The position numbers and the translations under genes were made by a program. From assembly GCF_011059105.1 (NCBI RefSeq), contig NZ_JAALLS010000005.1, positions 151,939 through 191,650 on the forward strand: a DNA stretch of 39,712 nucleotides, written 5' to 3'. Positions 1 to 12,497 of this stretch are shown here, one piece after another; position 1 is the first letter of the stretch, and every line of letters starts with the position of its first letter. The stretch comes from Fodinibius halophilus. Lineage in GTDB: Bacteria > Bacteroidota > Rhodothermia > Balneolales > Balneolaceae. The notes beneath the pieces are model-generated. The model searched no databases and was not told the DNA's origin. It worked only from the letters and a program-made list of their open reading frames with translations.

Positions 1-170
1 GAAACCGAGATCTTGAACTGATTACTACTACGCCAAGGTGTAATCTGCCGAAACCCTTAGGTGTAGGTATGGCTTCGTAGCACAGGTCCAGGATGACATG
101 CCGGGGTTTGCTACGCTCCCTAAAAGGAGGTAACAAATAAAAATTAGAGTTATAAGAAATTGCTCTCGGG

Positions 171-1592: not shown

Positions 1593-2711
1593 ATGGTGAA
1601 TAGAAAAATATCAATCTTAACATTAATCTTTGTTTTTCTCATTGGTACAAAGATTTCATTTTCGCAAAGCAATTGGGAACCAGAAACAAACATAACCGGT
1701 TATATCTCGACCGAAGTTAATTACTTTGACGAGCTGGATGGATATGATTTAAATTATTCTGCAGCAGTCTCAGAAGCAGGTATTTTAATATCATATCAGG
1801 TCAAATCCAATTTTAGGATAAAAGGGGTATTTGTTTATCGTCCCAAATTTGAAATTGACCAGATGCTTAATGAGGCTTTCGGTGAACTCACCTTCTCAGA
1901 AGAGGCTAAGTTTAAAGCCGGTCGATTTTTGCTGCCGTTAAGCCCCAGTAATACTTATTATTATGCACCTGTTAATACCAGTGCAACGCTACCTATATTG
2001 GTAACCAATCACGAGTTCTATCCCGTTACTATTGATGGTGCGTCCCTTAATGGATCAATCGGATCAGAATTCAAAGTCAATTATGATGTCTTTGCCGGTG
2101 GTTTTAATAACTCAACCTGGCTAAGAACCGGTGCTGTTCGTTTTTTCGGGGATGAAGTAAATTACTTCAAAAAACAAATTAACAGTTCTGCTACATTAGA
2201 TCCCTCATACAATAAAACCTACAACTTTGGGTATGGTGGTAGAGTAGGTTTTTCCTATAAATCAAATGTTGATGTTGGTTTTAGTGCATTCAAACCTAAT
2301 GATCAGGATGTTCCACTACTCGTTAACGTTCCGGCCGGTGTTGTTGGGCCAGATCCCGCACAAATAGTTCAAGAAAGTAAATTTGAAAAATTCAGCTACG
2401 GGGTTAACGTAAAGTTACAGTATAACAACACAAAGCTAGTAGGAGAATACTGGTATTCTGACCTCAAAATAGACGGCTCTGATACCGACTTGGAAGGGGG
2501 TTTTGTCGAGTTAAACCATCGCATCAATAAGGTTACTCCTTATATAAGATATGAGGATCAAAAAACCGCCGATGTTGACTACAAACGATATACCGCAGGA
2601 ATTAACTACAAGCCAAGCTTTAGAAAGACATTTAAGCTTGAATACTTGCGCTATGACCACTCTAGTGACCCTATCAATGGTTTTGTAGGTACATTAATTT
2701 ATTCATTCTAA
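1593..2711 (+). CDS. Outer-membrane beta-barrel porin-like protein
   Basis: A 372-residue protein with a signal peptide of about 24 residues (hydrophobic core ISILTLIFVFLIG, likely cleavage before QSNWEPE). It continues with alternating polar/hydrophobic strands rich in Y, N, G and F and ends in a C-terminal Phe (LIYSF), as expected of an outer-membrane barrel. Segments such as FGELTFSEEAKFKAGRFLLP and a long-range YIRYEDQKTADVDYKRYTAG pattern resemble phosphate-selective or carbohydrate porin-like barrels; I cannot assign a substrate. It lies 13 bp before the small periplasmic binding protein gene, and a terminator follows that gene, so the two probably form one transcript. The likely role is to let a solute into the periplasm for the binding protein and the downstream chemoreceptor. 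This functional link is inference. Confidence 0.75.
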   Translation: MVNRKISILTLIFVFLIGTKISFSQSNWEPETNITGYISTEVNYFDELDGYDLNYSAAVSEAGILISYQVKSNFRIKGVFVYRPKFEIDQMLNEAFGELTFSEEAKFKAGRFLLPLSPSNTYYYAPVNTSATLPILVTNHEFYPVTIDGASLNGSIGSEFKVNYDVFAGGFNNSTWLRTGAVRFFGDEVNYFKKQINSSATLDPSYNKTYNFGYGGRVGFSYKSNVDVGFSAFKPNDQDVPLLVNVPAGVVGPDPAQIVQESKFEKFSYGVNVKLQYNNTKLVGEYWYSDLKIDGSDTDLEGGFVELNHRINKVTPYIRYEDQKTADVDYKRYTAGINYKPSFRKTFKLEYLRYDHSSDPINGFVGTLIYSF

Positions 2712-2724
2712 AGGTTATAAGAAG

Positions 2725-3150
2725 ATGAAAAACATTATAACAACATTATTGGGCGTTTTCTTGATTGCCTTTGCTACAGAAGCTACGGCTCAGTCATATA
2801 AGGTGATCGTAAATAGCGCTAACAGTACAGAATCGATATCTAAGAAAAATTTATCTGAAATATTTCTTAAAAATAAAACTAAATGGGATGATGGGTCATC
2901 CATCAGTCCGGTTGATTTGAAATCTAGTTCCGCAACACGGAAGGCATTTTCAAATGACGTTCTTGGCAGAGATGTTGGTGCCATAAGAAGTTATTGGCAG
3001 CAAGCAGCTTTTTCCGGAAAAGGAACAGCTCCCGTCGAGCGCTCAAGTGATGCCGAAGTTATCACTTTTGTCAAAAATAATCCCGGAGCCGTTGGTTATA
3101 TATCCGAATCAACTGATGCATCCGGTGTAAAAGTGTTGACCATTAATTAA
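2725..3150 (+). CDS. Small PstS-like periplasmic substrate-binding protein (PBP-like, single lobe)
   Basis: A 141-residue secreted protein. It has a signal peptide of about 22 residues ending in ATA before QSYKV. The mature part has the short PBP_like (PstS-type) pattern: an SISKKNLSEIFLKNKTKW segment, PVDLKSSSATRKAF, SYWQQAAFSGKG, and the glycine-rich close NNPGAVGYISES. Full PstS proteins have two lobes and over 250 residues; at about 119 mature residues this one can form only about one lobe. Members of this short family are usually annotated as phosphate ABC transporter substrate-binding proteins, but no ABC transporter is present here. It sits between a porin-like gene and a chemoreceptor, so a sensory rather than transport role is plausible. 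Family confidence is high; the ligand is unknown. Confidence 0.8.
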   Translation: MKNIITTLLGVFLIAFATEATAQSYKVIVNSANSTESISKKNLSEIFLKNKTKWDDGSSISPVDLKSSSATRKAFSNDVLGRDVGAIRSYWQQAAFSGKGTAPVERSSDAEVITFVKNNPGAVGYISESTDASGVKVLTIN

Positions 3151-3163
3151 CACATTAGTATAA

Positions 3164-3208
3164 GCGAGTCATAAGAAATGGATACCTGTTTTTATGGCTC
3201 GCATTTTT
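3164..3208 (+). terminator. Rho-independent terminator after the binding-protein gene
   Basis: GCGAGTCATAA (3164-3174) pairs with TTATGGCTCGC (3192-3202): 11 bp with one G-U pair and a 17-nt loop. ATTTTT follows. It begins 14 nt after the stop codon and separates the porin/binding-protein transcript from the chemoreceptor gene. Confidence 0.75.
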
Positions 3209-3256
3209 ATAAGGAGGAATTAAAAAACTAAAATTCAGCAAAACATGCGTTTTTAG

Positions 3257-3269
3257 TAGTAGGGTATAA
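3257..3269 (+). promoter_or_regulatory. Shared 13-nt upstream motif, copy 2
   Basis: Identical to 1524-1536 (TAGTAGGGTATAA) and 20 nt upstream of the chemoreceptor start. Because a terminator lies just before it, the chemoreceptor needs its own promoter, and this motif is the best visible candidate. No convincing -35 hexamer was found at normal spacing. Confidence 0.3.
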
Positions 3270-3289
3270 AAAATTCAACTTGTCGAACA

Positions 3290-4897
3290 ATGAATATATT
3301 CAATCACATAAAACTCAGGTATAAAATTCTTGTTTTCCCTACCATATTTATTATGGTTGTAGGTGCGATATTTTATACCACTCGGTGGAGTAATGAAACG
3401 ATCAAAAAGGAACTGAATACGGTTCAGTATTCTTATATCCCGTATAATGACCTCACTAATCGCATGAGCTCAACTCAAGCGGCTATTGAGAAATCGTTCC
3501 AGGATGCGGTAGCGGCAAAAGATAAAGCCATGGTTGAAAAGACAACCAAATTGGCTACGCAGTTTAGGCAGCTGGCCGATAGTGCAAAATCGATAAAAGC
3601 GGATAACGATTATACACTGCTCAACAATACGATTCAGTCGTTTAATGATTATTACAGCCAAGGTGTTAAAGCCTCCGAAATGATGATTACACAAGATTTT
3701 TCGGAAGAGGTCAGTAATAATGTGCAGGCCATGATTGCCGAGCAAAAAAAGCTCAAAAAACTGCTAAATAAAGCATCTAGCCTGGAAGTTAATACTGCGT
3801 TTGACAATGCTCACCAGCAGTTAGCCGATCTAAAGGGAACAATTAATAAAGTGCTCTTAATTAGTCTAGGGCTATTTATAGGATTTTCTTTGTTGCTTTC
3901 GCACGCTATTGCCGGGGCAATACGCAGAATGGTAAAACGAATTAAAGAACTTGCTGATGGAGATTTAAGTATCCACATTTCTGAAAAAGATCTGAATCGA
4001 AAAGATGAAATTGGTGATATTTCAAAAGCTCTACATAGTCTAGTTGCTCAACTTAAAAATGTGATAAAGGGTGTGCAGCGCGAATCCAGTGAAATATCAA
4101 ATATAAGTGAACAACTCGAAGCTACATCCAACCAGTTGGCCCGCGGATCCAATGAACAAGCTGAGTTCGTGGATGAGATATCCAGTACGATGGAAGAAGT
4201 ATCGACTAATATTACCCAAAATGCCGAAAATGCTCAGCAAACGAATGTTATTTCCCGCAACGCTAATGAACAACTAAAAGAAGTAGGGAAAAAATCGAAA
4301 AAAGCTATTGAGGCTAACGAAACCATCACCAATAGAATTAATCAGATTAATGAAATAGCTTCGCAAACCAATATCCTGGCGCTTAATGCAGCTATTGAAG
4401 CAGCACGGGCCGGGGAAGCAGGCAAAGGGTTTGCCGTGGTAGCCAAGGAGGTTCAGGTACTGGCCGAGAAAAGCAAGAACGTTGGCGATGAAATTGTAGA
4501 ACTTACTAATGATGCCTACGAACTTTCATCAGAAGCCGGCGAAGTAATGTTCGAAACGATTCCCAAAATTAAAGAGACATCCGATTTGGTAAAGGAAATT
4601 TCTATTGCCAGTGATGAACAAAGCCAGGGAGCTAATGAGGTCAACCAATCCATACAACAGTTAAATACCCTTTCACAGCAAAGTGCAGCTTCCAGTGAAG
4701 AGTTGGCTTCTTCAGCAGAACAGCTTATGAACCAATCAAACCGTTTGAAGCAATCCATCTCTTATTATCATATGGATGATGAAGATCTACAACAGCAATC
4801 ACCGAATCCACAATCGTTTAGCGGGAATAATACAAACGGAAATGGAAACGGTCAAAAAGCTCAAAATGGAATGCACGCTGAAGATTTTACCCTATAA
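3290..4897 (+). CDS. Methyl-accepting chemotaxis protein with helical periplasmic sensor and HAMP
   Basis: A 535-residue transmembrane chemoreceptor. It has TM1 (about 12-30), a roughly 155-residue all-helical periplasmic domain of the four-helix-bundle type, TM2 (about 187-207), and HAMP (about 208-262, with [10 protein letters not shown] and [12 protein letters not shown]). A long coiled coil follows, with the signalling tip at about 355-395 ([19 protein letters not shown] and the [16 protein letters not shown] stretch). The tail is rich in N, G and Q and has no NWETF-like tether. It would signal to a CheA/CheW array, none of which is encoded in the window. It is downstream of the porin and the single-lobe binding protein, after a terminator. 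It is followed 66 nt later by the first copy of the terminator repeat. The ligand is unknown; docking of the small binding protein is possible. Confidence 0.9.
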
Positions 4898-4962: not shown

Positions 4963-5090
4963 GAATCCATACACATAGGCAATGTGTATGGATTTTTTAT
5001 TGCCCCTTCTCGGAGATCTCCAAAAATGTTTCATACTTCCTGGAGTGGTATAGATTCATCTATACCATTTGTCCCATCGTTGCCAAAGCT
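4963..5090 (+). repeat. Direct repeat copy A (two-hairpin element)
   Basis: A 128-bp segment matched at 8751-8878 with about ten differences. It contains a perfect 13-bp-stem terminator hairpin (4964-4994) and a second hairpin, TGGTATAGAT-TC-ATCTATACCA (5046-5067). Similarity fades after the shared end CCAAAGCT. The differences between copies fall in the loops and unpaired parts; the only change in a stem is a C to T that keeps a G-U pair. Copies A and B flank the second chemoreceptor and the second porin. Confidence 0.9.
4964..4999 (+). terminator. Rho-independent terminator (repeat copy A)
   Basis: AATCCATACACAT (4964-4976) pairs perfectly with ATGTGTATGGATT (4982-4994) across a 5-nt loop, followed by a T run. 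It lies 66 nt after the first chemoreceptor's stop codon. Confidence 0.85.
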
Positions 5091-5721
5091 TCTTACTCCC
5101 TATGGCACTATTTTAGGCATTGCTGTCATAGAACTTAAGAGGTTGACAATTCGTTTAGTATTTGAATGTAATGACTAATACATGACACTTCCCCTCTGTG
5201 CCCCCCCTATCCGGGGCAGTAACCAGCGTTGATCTGTCCACCGCCATATCAACCAAAATCCTGAGGGAAGGCCAGTCCACTACATGCGTAATAGTATCCT
5301 TTTACAACCCGAGTAATATATATTTAAGCCTTTCAATAATAGTCGGGAAGCTCAACTCTCATCAGGTCAGACTTTTAATCTGATCCATTGCAGAGAGTGA
5401 CAACATCTTACAGATCAAATTGATGTTGAAATTTTACCTACCTGATAAATTACCATAAATAGTCACAGAGAGTTACTGATCTCCTCCCTAATTCAAACCT
5501 ATCATCCAAAAAGTAGTAACAATAACGGAGAGCATGGGCAAATAACATCACAACGTATAAAACTGATCAATAAAATACCCCTTCCGTTTAAGAAATTAAT
5601 ATATCACTCCGATAACAATAAAAATTATGCCTGCTAGGTAACCCAAAAAAAGGGTAAATGCTGGCTGCTTATTGAAGGTGTTTAAAAACATTCAGGTGTA
5701 TAATTTTAAAAAAGGGGTTCT
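5091..5721. other. Gene-free spacer between the two chemoreceptor genes
   Basis: About 630 bp downstream of repeat A with no believable gene. Short open frames at 4951-5178 and 5198-5383 run through the repeat or have no protein-like composition or start signal. A TTGACA-like word at 5143-5148 has TGTAAT 18 nt later, but no gene follows closely. A TATAAT at 5699-5704 lies 17 nt before the next start codon without a good -35 partner. The region probably holds the promoter and leader of the next chemoreceptor and may be decayed sequence. Confidence 0.5.
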
Positions 5722-7296
5722 ATGTGGAGTAATACTGGGTTAAAAACCAAAATAACAACTTTGACTACCGGAATACTGGTAGCTTCCGGGATAATGATCA
5801 TCGTTGTAGGACTGTATTTATTGAACAATTCTATAATGAAAGAAAAGAAAACCCAAACCAAGGAACTGGTTAGGGTGGGACTGTCAACTCTGGAACATTA
5901 TTATAAAATGGAGCAATCTGGTGAGTTAAATCGCCAGGAAGCTCAGAAAATGGCAAAAGAAGCTATTAAAACCATGCGGTTTGGAGATAAGGGGAAAGAT
6001 TATTTTTGGATTAATGATTTTCATCCCAAGATGGTCATGCATCCGTTTCGCCCCGACTTGGACGGAAAGGATTTATCATCTGTAACAGATCCCAACGGCG
6101 TCAACATCTTCATCGAAGTTGTACGAGTCAGTGAAGAATCAGGGGGTGGATTTGTCCCATATCAGTGGCAGTATTATGACGATGAGGACAGGATTGAACC
6201 GAAGCTTTCCTATGTTTCTGAATTTGCTCCCTGGGGTTGGATCATTGGTACTGGTGTATATATCGATGATGTTAAATCAACGGTATGGTCTGCTGGATTT
6301 TTCTTAATGATAATTTCGCTTGTAGCAATTGGCCTTGGCACAGGTGCAACCGTTTTATTTTCTCGCAATCTAAGTGACCGACTGAAAGAGACCTCTTCAC
6401 ACATATCTTCGGTGTCGGATCAGGTTGCTTCAGCATCTTATCAAGTTTCCGGTGCTAGTCAATCGTTGGCAGAAGGCGCTAGTGAGCAAGCTTCAAGCAT
6501 ACAGGAAACTTCGGCCTCTCATGAGGAATTAGAGGTAATGACGAAACAAAATTCCAAAAATGCCCAAAAGGCGAATGACCTAATGGATATGACGAAGGAA
6601 TTATTGACTCAAACGCTGGATGAAATGGAGCGGATGAGCAAACAGATTTCATTAATAAGTGACTCGGCCAATCAGACGGCAGCCATTGTAAAAACGATTG
6701 ATGAAATTGCCTTCCAAACTAATCTACTGGCTTTAAATGCTGCTGTAGAGGCTGCCCGGGCCGGTGATGCCGGTAAAGGGTTTGCAGTCGTCGCTGAAGA
6801 AGTAAGGTCACTGGCAAAAAGAAGTTCGAAGGCTGCAAGTGAGACTACCGTATTGATAGAAGAATCTCAAGAGAATGCTGAATCCGGGGTAATAGTGACA
6901 GAATCACTTGCAGAATCTGTAGAAAATGTTGCAGAAAATGTTGAACAGGTAGCCACCCTGGTTACGGATATAGCAACAGCATCTCAAGAACAGACAACGG
7001 GATTGAGTCAGGTTAACACGGCTGTAATGAAAATTGACACGGTGGTACAGGCTAACGCTGCCAATGCAGAAGAAACGGCAAGTGCCAGTGAAGAGCTTTC
7101 ATCTCGGTCTAACGAGTTGAAAGCCATGGTTTCTAATCTCAGAGAAATTATAACGGGAACGCAATCAAATGAGCCTACAAGTACTAGCAGGTACAATAGT
7201 GGGCCTAATATGAATAATGGCTCTGAATCTAAGAATAATCGTCATACGGAAACGAATGGTTCAAGGAGTTCAGAAAAACAACCAGCCTTAAGCTAA
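5722..7296 (+). CDS. Methyl-accepting chemotaxis protein with single Cache (sCache_2) sensor, no HAMP
   Basis: A 524-residue chemoreceptor. TM1 is at about 11-34. The periplasmic single-Cache domain (about 40-187) has the strong sCache_2 signatures [32 protein letters not shown] and [17 protein letters not shown]2 is at about 189-212. The chain then runs directly into a coiled coil ([20 protein letters not shown]) without the P and E/GD pattern of a HAMP domain. The signalling tip has [19 protein letters not shown] followed by [17 protein letters not shown]. sCache_2 receptors with known ligands often bind small carboxylates, so that is a reasonable ligand class; the actual ligand is unknown. 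The tail is Ser/Asn-rich and lacks a tether pentapeptide. A porin gene follows 63 bp downstream, and no terminator was seen between them, so they probably share a transcript. Confidence 0.92.
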
Positions 7297-7359
7297 TCAA
7301 TACTTAGGGCAACCCTACTCAACTTTAAGATAACTATATAAATAATTTTGGAGAACAAG

Positions 7360-8601
7360 ATGAAACGTACACGATCAAACCATCGACTTATACAAGCCCT
7401 GTGTGTGATTATTTTTGGAGTTTGTGCAACAGGATTACCATTTAACAGTGCCTTAGCACAAGACACAAGTATTTCTTTTTCAGGATTTGTAAAATCCGAT
7501 ATCTATTCGGATACAAGAAATACTGTATCCGCACGAGATGGGCAATTTTTACTCTTTCCAGAGAATAAAGAGTTCAATGCGAACGGAACAGATATTAACA
7601 AAAACACTCAGTTTAATATGATTGCCCTGCAAACCCGAGTTCAAGCCCGGATAAGTGGTCCAAAGGCGTTTGGGGCAAAAACATCGGGAATGGTAGAAGC
7701 AGCCTTTTTTGGTTCTACAGAGGCCAATATAAATACGCTAAGACTGCGTCATGCCTGGCTCAAGCTTGATTGGACTAAAACCAGTCTAATTGTTGGCCAA
7801 ACATGGCATCCTTTGTTTGTAACACGATCATTCCCGGGAACGGTATCGTTTTCTACCGGCGTACCTTTCCAGCCATTTTCACGAAATCCTCAAATAAGGT
7901 TGACGCATAAGGAAGGTATCTTTACCGGAATCTTGGCAGCTATGTCGCAACGAGACTTCTCCGGGCCAGGTGGTACTGCTTCGCTTCGTAATGCTGTGGT
8001 ACCAAACCTGCATGCCCAGGTACAGGTTGGTACAGACGATATCTCAGGAGGAGTAGGAGTAGATTTTAAACGTTTAGACATAGATGCCCAAAAATATAAT
8101 CCCGTAAACAGTTACTCTTATTTCGGCTTTTTTCACCTGCCAGTAAGTATTTTCACCAGTAAAAGTTATATTCTATATGGAGAAAATATGCAGGACCAAT
8201 TAATGCTGGGGGGAGTAGCACGTGAGGCTACCGGCGGAAACAATAACTACAACCTTCTGCCTTACAAAACGATCAGTTTGTGGCATGACCTTACGACTGG
8301 TTTTCGAGGAGATCCTAACAAAATAACGTATGAGATAGGCTTGTTTACCGGATACTCCAAAAACCTGGGAACCGATCAAAATAATATTGTTACTATCCCA
8401 GGTTTTGTCCGTGGTGCAGACGTAGATTACCTCTATCGAATTGCGCCAAGAGTTCAAGCTCAATCAGGATCAATTCGATTTTCAGTTGAAGCAGATATTA
8501 CCGCAGCAGCATACGGAAGTATTGAATCTGATGGCACCGTGACCAATTCAGACCCAGTAACGAACCTGCGCCTGTTAATAGGAGCCTGGTTATTTTTCTA
8601 A
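7360..8601 (+). CDS. DcaP-like trimeric outer-membrane porin
   Basis: A 413-residue protein starting at the ATG at 7360, which has GGAG six bases before it. The frame also offers a TTG at 7348, but the ribosome-binding site favours the ATG. The signal peptide is about 33 residues (…FNSALA before QDTSISF). The mature protein begins FSGFVKSDIYSD and has LRLRHAWLKLDWTKTSLIVG and GQTWHPLFVTRSFPGTVSF, the pattern of DcaP/porin_5-like barrels, and it ends in Phe-Phe. In characterised relatives these porins pass small dicarboxylates or similar anions; that is family knowledge and not shown here. The word TAACTATATAAA precedes it at 7331-7342, as it precedes the first porin. It probably supplies the ligand sensed by the adjacent Cache chemoreceptor (inference). 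Confidence 0.75.
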   Translation: MKRTRSNHRLIQALCVIIFGVCATGLPFNSALAQDTSISFSGFVKSDIYSDTRNTVSARDGQFLLFPENKEFNANGTDINKNTQFNMIALQTRVQARISGPKAFGAKTSGMVEAAFFGSTEANINTLRLRHAWLKLDWTKTSLIVGQTWHPLFVTRSFPGTVSFSTGVPFQPFSRNPQIRLTHKEGIFTGILAAMSQRDFSGPGGTASLRNAVVPNLHAQVQVGTDDISGGVGVDFKRLDIDAQKYNPVNSYSYFGFFHLPVSIFTSKSYILYGENMQDQLMLGGVAREATGGNNNYNLLPYKTISLWHDLTTGFRGDPNKITYEIGLFTGYSKNLGTDQNNIVTIPGFVRGADVDYLYRIAPRVQAQSGSIRFSVEADITAAAYGSIESDGTVTNSDPVTNLRLLIGAWLFF

Positions 8602-8750
8602 TTGATTACAAAAAGAGGTAACCAAATTCGTAATGGAATTTATTGCTGACATATAGAAGAACTCAATCAAAGAGTTTTTACTATAGCATTCTACCTCGTG
8701 CCCGGCAATAATAGATAGTTAGGACTAAGAAATTTCAGCTCAGTTTATAA

Positions 8751-8878
8751 GAATCCATACACATGGGAATGTGTATGGATTTTTTTATTGCCCCCTCTCG
8801 GAGATCTCCAAAAATGTTTTACACTTCCTAGAGTGGTATAGATTCATCTATACTATTTGTCACATCGTTGCCAAAGCT
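8751..8878 (+). repeat. Direct repeat copy B (two-hairpin element)
   Basis: The second copy of the 128-bp element at 4963-5090, in the same orientation, 3788 bp away start to start. The 13-bp terminator stem is unchanged while its loop differs (GGGA instead of AGGCA). The second hairpin (8834-8855) has one C-to-T change leaving a G-U pair. The copy ends 66 bp from the encoded end of ssrA. Confidence 0.9.
8752..8787 (+). terminator. Rho-independent terminator (repeat copy B)
   Basis: AATCCATACACAT (8752-8764) pairs perfectly with ATGTGTATGGATT (8769-8781) across a 4-nt loop, followed by a run of T. It would end the chemoreceptor-porin transcript. Confidence 0.85.
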
Positions 8879-8901: not shown

Positions 8902-8933
8902 AAAAAAAAGCCCAACCACTTGGTGGTTGAGCT
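8902..8933 (-). terminator. Rho-independent terminator of ssrA
   Basis: Read on the minus strand, AGCTCAACCAC and GTGGTTGGGCT form an 11-bp stem with one G-U pair and a 3-nt loop, followed by eight T. It lies about ten bases after the encoded 3' end of tmRNA. Confidence 0.9.
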
Positions 8934-8942
8934 TGATAATAT

Positions 8943-9308
8943 TGTGGAGGTGCGGGGAGTCGAACCCCGGTCCGAAATGGTATATCGTTCAAGCATCTAC
9001 ATGCTTATTTGCCGTTTAAAATTCGCCTGAAGCATCGCCCGGCAACTGGCAACTTCAGACTAGCCTGTTAAAGTTTTACGCAGGTTCGACAGACAGCGAA
9101 ACCTACGCTATCCTATCATAATCGGCGCTCCTTTCAGCACTGATAGGCAAGAAGCTGAAGGAACGGCTAAGCTGCGTTACGCAGCTAAGCTATAAGAATA
9201 GTTGTTGTCAACTATGTTTAATGCAGAATGATTATTTACGAGTGTCATTGCGAAAACTCGGCATGCAGCCTGCGATTCTACTCACTCCGTCGAATCCGGT
9301 ACACCCCC
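8943..9308 (-). ncRNA. ssrA: Transfer-messenger RNA (tmRNA)
   Basis: One-piece tmRNA of about 366 nt that rescues stalled ribosomes with SmpB. The 5' end GGGGGTG (9308-9302) pairs with the 3' CACCTCC (8952-8946) as a 7-bp acceptor stem. The T arm reads GACCGGGGTTCGACTCCCC, and the 5' part has the conserved GGATTCGACGG and GCATGCCGAG. CCA is not fully encoded (A then CAAT). Aligning the segment before the tag with E. coli (ATAGTC there, ATAGTT here) sets the resume codon at GAC, giving the tag DNNYSYSLAA followed by TAA. The last Ala codon and the stop sit in a 7-bp hairpin whose loop is the TAA itself. The resume codon is an inference from alignment by eye; the gene identity is certain. Confidence 0.97.
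9177..9209 (-). other. tmRNA tag reading frame (DNNYSYSLAA, stop)
   Basis: Ten codons plus TAA, the same length as the E. coli tag ANDENYALAA. The C-terminal LAA, which ClpXP-type proteases recognise in E. coli, is kept; the middle (NYSYS) differs. The frame stays open upstream, so the resume point rests on alignment with the conserved sequence before the E. coli resume codon. Confidence 0.75.
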
Positions 9309-9747: not shown

Positions 9748-12333
9748 TTAAATAACCAACTCTCCGGCAGGCGGACGCAAGTTATAGTCCGAACTCATCA
9801 CCTGTCCATAAGCCCCGGCATTGGCAAGCAATACCACATCTCCTTCCTCTGATTCCGGGAACCTCCGGTCGATCCCCAGCTTATCGCCCGACTCACAGAT
9901 AGGTCCAACGATATTCACCGTCTGTACCAGCGGCTCATCCAGCTTATCCAGGTTTACAATAGTATGTCGAGCCCCATACAGTGCCGGACGTATAAAGGAG
10001 TTCATCCCTGTTTCTACCCCTATGTAACGCACATCGCCTTTCCCTTTCAGCTGCGTAATCTTGGTCAGTAATACACCCGCAGTCGCCACTAAAAAACGAC
10101 CCGGTTCTACCCAGAGTTCATATTCGGGGTGGGCCTCTTTAAATTGTTCGAGATAAGCTGCCACCTCACGGATATCCAAGCTTGCCTGGGTCTCATTCTC
10201 CTGAATTCCAAAACCGCCACCAAGATCAAGAATTTGAACACCCCCTAGCTCCTCAGCCACTTCATGCAGAATTATTCCAACGTCTTTCCATGAATGGGGA
10301 TCTTTGATACCGCTGCCAATATGGGCATGGAGGCCCTTCACCGAAATATCATATTGTTCGATAAGGTCCGCCACCTCCGGAATTTCAAAGCGTGGAATCC
10401 CAAACTTCGAATGTACGCCCCCGGTTTTCACATGCTTATGATGACCGTGCCCATGCCCGGGATCAATCCGCAAGAACACCTCTTCACCCTCAAACAGTTT
10501 TGGCCAGTGCTGTAGGGGGTAAATATTATCCAGTGTTACGTGTACTCCAAGCTCTAATCCTCGCTCATACTCCTCTTTGGGAGCAAAGTTTGGGGTAAAT
10601 AAAATCTCATCCCGATCAATACCGGGGAACAGCTCAATTACCTTCTCTACTTCACCGATAGAAACACACTCGAACCCAAGATCAAGCTCATTAACAGCAT
10701 GTAATAGTTCTTCGTTATCATTGGCTTTCATCGCATACAACGAACGATCTACAGCATCAATATCCTTAATAAAACCAGCATACTTTTGAAGCGTCTCCCG
10801 ATCATATACATACACAGAATCTTGTTCCTCCATCAGTGAAAGTAACTCCTCGCGCTTTCGCTTCCACCAGGCATCTTTGGTATGCTCCTCTGGTTGAGTC
10901 TCTTCCATCAGCTTCGGCCATGTACCGCCAAAAGACTGCTGGTTTCCAGACTGTAAAATTAACTGTTCATGCAGCTGTCGAAGTAACCGGTCTACCTGAT
11001 CGCTTTCCACCACAAAGGTAAAGTTAAGATCATTCGCAGCCTGGCTCACCAGATAAACCTGATGTTCCTCAAAAACCTCAAAGGATGTTCCCAGCTGGTG
11101 CAAAATCGTACGAATTTTGCGTCCCATCAGGCTCACTGCCGATACCGACTCAATTACCTCAACCTTGCAATATTCACTGAGCTCCTGCTCAAACTGGTCG
11201 CGCACATCCTCAAAATGATCGTTTAAGCCCGGATCCAGTGATACCGTCACATTCGACTGGGAAGTTGATACCAAATCAATAGATAGGCCATGCTCTTTAA
11301 AGACCTCAAAAGCATCTGCCAAGAACCCCACCTGTTGCCACATGCCCAGCGAATCCATACTTACCAAGATAATATCGTGGCGAACCGAAATTGCTTTTAC
11401 CAATGCCTCATTATCAGCTGCATCGCTCGAAATAACGGTCCCTGGCAGTTCCGGCTTCTGGGTGCAACGCACATTTATGGGGATGTTATGCTTCCGTGCC
11501 GGCATAATGCTTCGCGGATGTAATACCTTAGCCCCATTGGTTGCAATTTCCTGGGCCTCTTCATAACTGAGGTGGTTAAGCAACCGCGCCGATGGTACCG
11601 TGTGTGGATTTGCCGAAAACATGCCCGGTACATCCGTCCATATCTCCAGGTGATCTGCCCCAATATTTGCTGCAAAATAGGCAGCCGACACATCCGACCC
11701 ACCGCGTCCCAGCGTCACCGTTTTGCCTTCATCATCGCTACCAATAAATCCTTGTGTTACCACTAATGAACCGGCTTCATTTACCTTTTTTTGTACCCGG
11801 GGCTCATACTCAGATGAGCTCACCGCGGATAATACCTGTGCGCGCTCCGAAACATTTTTTTGCGGTACTGCTTTAATAAGATCGCGGGCATCCATCCAGA
11901 CTGCCGCACCAATTTCTTGCTCCAAGTACGCAGCACCTAACTTCGTTGCCATCAGCTCGCCCATCGCCAACAAACGGGCCTGCACCCGGTGGCTGGATTC
12001 TCCAATGAGCTCAATTCCTTTAACAATATGCTCTAATTCTTCAAAATCGTCCTGCAGTAATTCCTCTGCTGAAAGACCTAGGGTTGATGCTAACCGTTGA
12101 TGTTGCTCTTTAATACGCTCAACAAGCTCTGTCGCCTCTCCTTGAGGGGCACTAGCAATAATATCTTCCAGCAAATTTGAAATTCCGCTCAAGGCAGAAT
12201 GTACAATACATACCGAATACCCTTCAGATTTTCGTTTTTGTATAACCGAAACAATGTTCTTCCAATTTTCGTGAGAAGAAACGCTGGTTCCACCAAACTT
12301 TAATACAATCCAGTTCGAACTTTCTTTAGTCAT
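9748..12333 (-). CDS. Bifunctional aspartate kinase / diaminopimelate decarboxylase
   Basis: An 861-residue fusion catalysing the first step (aspartate to aspartyl phosphate) and the last step (meso-diaminopimelate to lysine) of lysine synthesis. The N-terminal half is an aspartate kinase with KFGGTS about 12 residues in and GFIGSDDEGKTVTLGRGGSD, followed by two ACT-type regulatory repeats (around VSMDSLGMWQQVGFLAD and VSAVSLMGRKIR). The C-terminal half is a PLP-dependent group IV decarboxylase, with the PLP lysine in YAMKAN (codon at 10728-10726), GHHKHVKTGGVHSKFG, ILDLGGGFG and the catalytic cysteine in CESGD (codon at 9897-9895). The Met at 12333 sits just before the kinase core; an in-frame ATG at 12357 would add eight residues, and neither has a clear ribosome-binding site. 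Similar fusions are known in Xanthomonadaceae. No lysine riboswitch is visible upstream. Confidence 0.95.
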   Translation of the reverse strand: MTKESSNWIVLKFGGTSVSSHENWKNIVSVIQKRKSEGYSVCIVHSALSGISNLLEDIIASAPQGEATELVERIKEQHQRLASTLGLSAEELLQDDFEELEHIVKGIELIGESSHRVQARLLAMGELMATKLGAAYLEQEIGAAVWMDARDLIKAVPQKNVSERAQVLSAVSSSEYEPRVQKKVNEAGSLVVTQGFIGSDDEGKTVTLGRGGSDVSAAYFAANIGADHLEIWTDVPGMFSANPHTVPSARLLNHLSYEEAQEIATNGAKVLHPRSIMPARKHNIPINVRCTQKPELPGTVISSDAADNEALVKAISVRHDIILVSMDSLGMWQQVGFLADAFEVFKEHGLSIDLVSTSQSNVTVSLDPGLNDHFEDVRDQFEQELSEYCKVEVIESVSAVSLMGRKIRTILHQLGTSFEVFEEHQVYLVSQAANDLNFTFVVESDQVDRLLRQLHEQLILQSGNQQSFGGTWPKLMEETQPEEHTKDAWWKRKREELLSLMEEQDSVYVYDRETLQKYAGFIKDIDAVDRSLYAMKANDNEELLHAVNELDLGFECVSIGEVEKVIELFPGIDRDEILFTPNFAPKEEYERGLELGVHVTLDNIYPLQHWPKLFEGEEVFLRIDPGHGHGHHKHVKTGGVHSKFGIPRFEIPEVADLIEQYDISVKGLHAHIGSGIKDPHSWKDVGIILHEVAEELGGVQILDLGGGFGIQENETQASLDIREVAAYLEQFKEAHPEYELWVEPGRFLVATAGVLLTKITQLKGKGDVRYIGVETGMNSFIRPALYGARHTIVNLDKLDEPLVQTVNIVGPICESGDKLGIDRRFPESEEGDVVLLANAGAYGQVMSSDYNLRPPAGELVI

Positions 12334-12497
12334 CTTTAATTCTATCAACTTAAACATTATCGGTTAGTGCCAAATGGCAAGCGATAAGATAATAATCTCA
12401 TAATCACTTTGTCGATAAAAAATATTTAACATTCGCTTCTGATTTTAAGCGACATTATTCTTTTATTCTCACATTCATCTAAACAAATAATCAAGAC

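Follow-up and report, generated by a model that had tools for sequence, protein, structure and literature searches.

A chemoreceptor and porin gene pair beside ssrA in Fodinibius halophilus, probably gained between two copies of a terminator spacer

Why should two nearly identical repeats in the same orientation enclose one chemoreceptor gene and one porin gene directly beside ssrA, the gene for transfer-messenger RNA (tmRNA)? This arrangement was examined in a 39,712-nucleotide stretch of Fodinibius halophilus DNA (the window; contig NZ_JAALLS010000005.1) from a genome (G000) of 4.19 Mb in 91 contigs. The two 128-bp repeats, R1 (4963-5090) and R2 (8751-8878), lie on the plus strand, and the genes of note between them are one chemoreceptor (MCP2, 5722-7296, plus strand) and one outer-membrane porin (7360-8601, plus strand), together called the cassette; ssrA follows R2 at 8944-9308 on the minus strand. 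The first-pass annotation of this DNA, which had placed the repeats and the two genes correctly, had proposed either a mobile or amplifiable terminator-type repeat, or the scar left where a cassette had been duplicated or inserted. The scar is the explanation preferred here: with a probability of about 0.6, the cassette was gained at an insertion hotspot after the split from the closest congener (G010), and the spacer that carries the terminator of MCP1, the chemoreceptor gene upstream, was duplicated on its far side. The locus looks like a fairly ordinary acquisition scar at a busy insertion site, with no new mobile repeat.

The comparison with G010 shows where the repeat begins. The three genes upstream of the cassette (91, 86 and 88% amino-acid identity), the terminator and ssrA occur in the same order in G010. 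The third of these genes is MCP1 (3290-4897, plus strand; HAMP and MCPsignal domains), the orthologue of which lies in the same place in G010. The first 39 bp of R1 correspond to the MCP1 terminator of G010, which is found at the same place and is 87% identical over 39 bp, so R1 sits at the ancestral MCP1 terminator. The G010 match to R1 extends four bases (TATT) upstream beyond the repeat, whereas the match to R2 does not. The 89 bp following the terminator and the cassette are both absent from G010, and the interval between terminator and ssrA is occupied there by a gene for a DUF285/PARCEL-repeat surface protein (L075:11136-12767). A synteny comparison had been suggested at first pass in order to find close relatives lacking the cassette with one repeat left. 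G010 does lack the cassette, but it has other DNA in the interval and retains no single full repeat, and no relative with one full repeat and without the cassette was found among the genomes compared. In two other congeners, G003 and G004, the upstream three-gene module is located elsewhere, beside what we take to be a catalase-peroxidase-like gene, and no repeat match there exceeds 14 nt.

The cassette itself was found in none of the 11 congeners, either by the porin (E 1e-10) or by the Cache part of MCP2 (E 1e-20). Among 16 more distant relatives, five had the porin at E 1e-10; at E 1e-60 it was detected in 12 of 128 genomes of the order (G000 included), none of the others being a congener; the MCP2 Cache part was detected in 3/128 (G000 included) at E 1e-20. 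Gain after the split from G010 is further supported by the 93% identity of R1 and R2, as compared with 79-82% DNA identity between the genes of G000 and G010 at this locus.

R1 and R2 align over 129 columns with seven substitutions and two one-base indels, that is, nine differences where about ten had been counted before. Their starts are 3788 bp apart, the longest unbroken identity is 24 bp, and the local alignment score is 214, whereas none of 200 mononucleotide shuffles scored above 30. The homology begins sharply at the base of hairpin 1, and the 65 bp preceding R1 show no relation to the 149 bp preceding R2 (869 of 1000 shuffles were equally good). On the right-hand side a weak tail of 15 columns may extend the match to 5108/8894 (37 of 1000 shuffles equally good), but it is doubtful that this tail is genuine homology. 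As noted at first pass, both copies fold into a terminator hairpin (hairpin 1, a 13-bp stem followed by T) and a second hairpin (9-bp stem), which is a 20-bp palindrome at 5047-5066 in R1 and 8835-8854 in R2. This palindrome, GTATAGATNNATCTATAC, had exact occurrences only in R1 and R2 among 28 genomes. The sole stem difference, a C to T change opposite G, keeps a G-U pair. The repeats had been called structurally conserved for this reason; however, one of nine differences in the stems, with 44 paired of 128 bases, is not significant (binomial P = 0.13), and the structural argument carries little weight.

The interval into which the cassette would have entered, between a DUF389 gene and ssrA, is variable across this one genus. 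It measures 103 bp in G003 and 383 bp in G002, 3.5-11.6 kb in G007, G006, G001, G010 and G009, and 7.7 kb in G000. In four further congeners (G004, G005, G008 and G011) a tyrosine integrase with Phage_integrase, SAM-like and arm-binding domains adjoins the 3' end of ssrA, and no DUF389 gene was present within the 13 kb examined. A 38-bp, 97% identical copy of the ssrA 3' end lies 12.5 kb away in G008 (L074), where the tyrosine integrase is also present, and this region is, on sequence grounds, a probable ssrA island. No second ssrA end was found within the stretch examined in G004, G005 or G011. According to the Islander description, such a copy of the end of a transfer RNA gene (tDNA) or tmRNA gene is the mark of a tDNA island (PMC4383910).

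According to the preferred explanation, a 3.66-kb segment comprising a non-coding stretch, the predicted C2/C3-carboxylate chemoreceptor and the porin would have entered this variable interval. The spacer after MCP1, beginning with the native MCP1 terminator, would thereby have come to lie on both sides of the segment. Gain and duplication would have been one event, possibly through recombination with a repeat-bearing molecule or through template switching at the hairpin-rich spacer. The 631 bp between R1 and MCP2 (5091-5721), with stops in all six frames, would have arrived as part of the segment; their sole match among the loci of other genomes compared was 43 nt in G008 (81%, E 0.001).

Several observations weigh against this explanation. 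The pre-insertion junction, MCP1 followed by one full repeat and ssrA, was not found among the genomes compared, so the 89 bp may instead have arrived with the cassette. The G010 interval is itself altered: beside ssrA, 57 nt match the integrase-side end of G011 at 75% identity, so that the ancestral state is a reconstruction. As ssrA (96%) and the terminator (88% over 43 nt) are more similar between G000 and G010 than the genes are, dating by the 93% identity of the copies is soft. Base composition does not flag the cassette as foreign, since G+C content is 42.6% in both of its genes and 37-47% in neighbouring genes. A donor carrying receptor, porin and repeat together was not found: the 11 other porin loci of the order showed no MCP2 match within flanks of up to 1.5 kb (one locus ends at the upstream side of the porin), and G117 has MCP2-type and porin-type genes on separate contigs.

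The most serious competitor, though improbable at about a third of the weight of the preferred explanation, is a simple local duplication of the MCP1 terminator spacer, unlinked to the arrival of the cassette and retained as insulation between porin and ssrA. It would agree with the start of the repeat at the base of the MCP1 terminator stem, with the position of R2 between the convergent porin and ssrA genes, and with the restriction of the full repeat to this locus among the genomes searched. It leaves unexplained why copies stand at both borders of a recently gained segment, and 89 of the 128 bases lie outside the conserved terminator. In addition, no MCP1 remnants, expected of a tandem duplication, were seen upstream of R2. 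The first-pass annotation had reasoned that its proposal would be refuted if the repeat were absent elsewhere and explicable as a simple local terminator duplication; the repeat is indeed absent elsewhere in the genomes searched, but a local duplication is the less probable explanation. It is rather unlikely that R1 and R2 are attL and attR, with the repeat as the attachment (att) core of an element that arrived by means of an integrase and has since lost it. The repeat lies exactly at both cassette borders and an integrase gene adjoins ssrA in four congeners, as this would require; against it, a Pfam scan of 26 window proteins detected no recombinase, the repeat differs from the ssrA 3' end, and no full repeat was found as a target in the relatives searched. 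An exact motif search for a second ssrA 3' end in the window found none, and an ssrA att site as the origin of the repeat was rejected on this basis. Integron attC core motifs (RYYYAAC or GTTRRRY) were likewise absent from both strands of R1 and R2, 20 bp of flanking sequence included.

Less probable still is that the repeat is a small mobile element or a gene for a regulatory RNA. In its favour, 141-nt stretches containing the repeats out-fold shuffled sequences on both strands, the minus strand performing best (z of -3.7 on the plus and -5.9 on the minus strand for R1, and -3.2 and -4.0 for R2). However, ssrA was the only Rfam match above cut-off in the window, and a search below cut-off around R1 alone gave nothing beyond a trpB motif (30 of 59 bits); an Rfam identity for the repeat was rejected. 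No sigma-70-like promoter was listed inside R1 or R2, although the promoters of this phylum may differ. The number of copies also argues against such an element. The 4.19-Mb genome holds two full copies, its remaining matches being four at E 0.47 and those of the hairpin to its own reverse, so the many copies of a dispersed repeat (REP/MITE) are lacking. No further full copy was detected in 57 relatives, five of which gave partial matches of 19-39 nt at E <= 0.01. The last 98 bp of the repeat were found, at E 1e-5, in one of 394 genomes of the phylum, namely G000 itself; in this search, which partly overlapped the earlier sample, no genome had more than two candidates scored among the matches listed. 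Phage and plasmid searches gave no match, and neither a 20-mer nor a 21-mer of the repeat was present in exact form in viral contigs. A dispersed repeat family and a phage, plasmid or viral origin were rejected accordingly. The mobile or amplifiable repeat of the first-pass annotation was not borne out by this copy number, by the motif searches or by the recombinase scan. Very improbable, finally, is the proposal of an undescribed recombination system that has the 128-bp element as its attachment core and lands at the chemoreceptor terminator spacer beside ssrA, with an excisable receptor-porin pair. Recombination between R1 and R2 is possible, but is not favoured as the longest identity is only 24 bp. 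Excision of the cassette, were it possible, would abolish chemotaxis and uptake together.

A background self-comparison was performed on 831,650 bp (20% of the genome), with rows of at least 60 nt and at least 80% identity within 30 kb. It returned 28 repeat rows, 26 of them direct, of which six belonged to a peptide array, two to N-joined contig ends and five to coding repeats. Copy number was determined for 12 of the remaining 13, and just two places each were found for R1/R2 and for the pairs C2 52794/54103 and C2 15743/17566. The impression that genes of this genome are generally flanked by direct repeats thus mostly dissolved into arrays, coding repeats, N-joined ends and multi-copy families. 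With three two-place rows, a two-copy local repeat is uncommon here, yet not unique. The C2 52794/54103 pair (L211, C2:52770-54250) consists of two 122-bp palindromic direct repeats that flank small genes, one copy having GTTAGGT at an end and the other ACCTAAC; from their sequence they look like integron attC sites. The peptide-rich locus L178 (C45:2100-8400) contains short peptides with a common leader, MSFMKTLSRDEMKN...AG, among longer genes, and repeats of 75-185 bp.

R1 was listed by a terminator scan as an intrinsic terminator of MCP1 (4963-4995), with a stem and T tract 3' of the gene. R2, which lies 3' of the porin gene, has the same stem and seven T after GGA and was not listed. As the scan found four sites against 3.8 expected, it proves nothing by itself, and conservation in G010 is the stronger support. 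R1 presumably continues to terminate MCP1. R2 probably keeps porin transcripts from continuing antisense into ssrA. The terminator-like hairpin of ssrA itself (8908-8934, minus strand) faces R2; hairpin-like sequence is present at this position in several congeners.

The product of MCP2 has sCache_2 and MCPsignal domains. Its Cache domain matches those of PscD (5g4y, E 6e-36) and Adeh_3718 (4k08, E 2e-37), and its score against the histidine kinase MctS was 86 of 700 bits, far under the cut-off. The PscD report names Tyr90, Trp92, His103, Phe126, Tyr143, Trp145 and Lys156 as propionate contacts (PMC5062169), and MCP2 has identical residues at all seven of these positions in an alignment read by eye, which points to C2/C3 carboxylates as predicted ligands. 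The start of the porin gene was given as TTG at 7348 in the open reading frame list, and ATG at 7360 is likelier. The porin matched no Pfam or NCBIfam family. A six-sequence model of moderate confidence (pLDDT 63) gave a beta-barrel with an N-terminal helix, the best Foldseek match of which was DcaP (6eus, E 2.7e-10, 15% identity, TM 0.55).

The pairing of the two genes was assessed at distant porin loci, taken as the best 80 of 550 stretches confirmed in a scan of genome contigs. Anywhere in the flanks of these 80, the MCP2 Cache part was matched in 24 and its signalling part in three, and other neighbour queries were matched in 37 and in 10, the former presumably sodium:solute-symporter-like and the latter DUF4212-like. 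Domain scans covered five of the 24 Cache-matching loci. In three of these (L125:1178-4651, L131:486-3917 and L149:452-3759) the porin is followed 23 to 42 bp on by an sCache_2/MCPsignal gene; the next gene in L118 and a nearby gene in L124 encode sCache_2 proteins with DUF294/CBS domains. At least three of the best 80 of 550 loci thus have the porin gene immediately next to one for an sCache_2 chemoreceptor; the pairing recurs, and the notion that it is found nowhere else was rejected. Such pairs are informative about function and do not alter the odds for the repeat. The PscD-type pocket, DcaP-like porin, recurring pairs and gene neighbours make it likely that the cassette senses and takes up small carboxylates. 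In G076 a porin relative follows two genes, presumably lactate permease-like and FAD-linked oxidase-like.

Some further features of the window were recorded. The upstream three-gene module (1593-4897) encodes a 372-aa unassigned protein, a PstS-like short protein and the chemoreceptor MCP1; its first gene occurs in seven of 58 genomes (own included) at several different loci, and is thus patchy too. On the other side, ssrA is adjoined by a fused aspartate kinase - diaminopimelate decarboxylase-type gene (9748-12357). Of the 128 genomes of the order, 15 have a match to it at E 1e-100, and these belong to a single family; this gene (lysAC) failed as an identity yardstick for other families because its matches were confined to its own. 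At the start of the window, a 98%-identical 124-bp stretch (window 1-124; C45:151819-152062) flanks an N at C45:151938, one base before the window. This appears to be a scaffold join where overlapping contig ends were left unmerged, and not a biological tandem repeat, and a second N-containing case resembles it (C8:177-450).

Compared with known systems, the locus shares with Islander-type genomic islands at tRNA and tmRNA genes the variable DNA beside ssrA, and G008 carries the classical island mark; here, in contrast, no integrase and no ssrA fragment were found, and the direct repeat is a terminator spacer. Integron attC cassettes also have hairpin-bearing repeats of similar length after genes, but the hairpins of R1 and R2 are separate, with no end-to-end fold, and an attC identity was rejected as the core motifs are missing. 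Among the C2/C3-carboxylate sCache chemoreceptors (PscD, Adeh_3718 and McpP), MCP2 matches PscD and Adeh_3718 in sequence and has the seven contact residues of PscD, differing in that its gene adjoins a porin gene and its ligand is predicted from sequence. DcaP-type outer membrane channels gave the best structural match to the modelled porin, at 15% identity. In L125, L131 and L149 a porin of this family likewise has an sCache_2/MCPsignal gene as its immediate neighbour, but with porin first and receptor second, no repeat match at E 1, and Cache parts 34-42% identical. The locus documents the putative joint gain, beside ssrA, of an outer-membrane channel and a matching sensor for small organic acids, here without the usual integrase and tDNA scar; the porin family pairs with sCache_2 chemoreceptors in distant bacteria as well.

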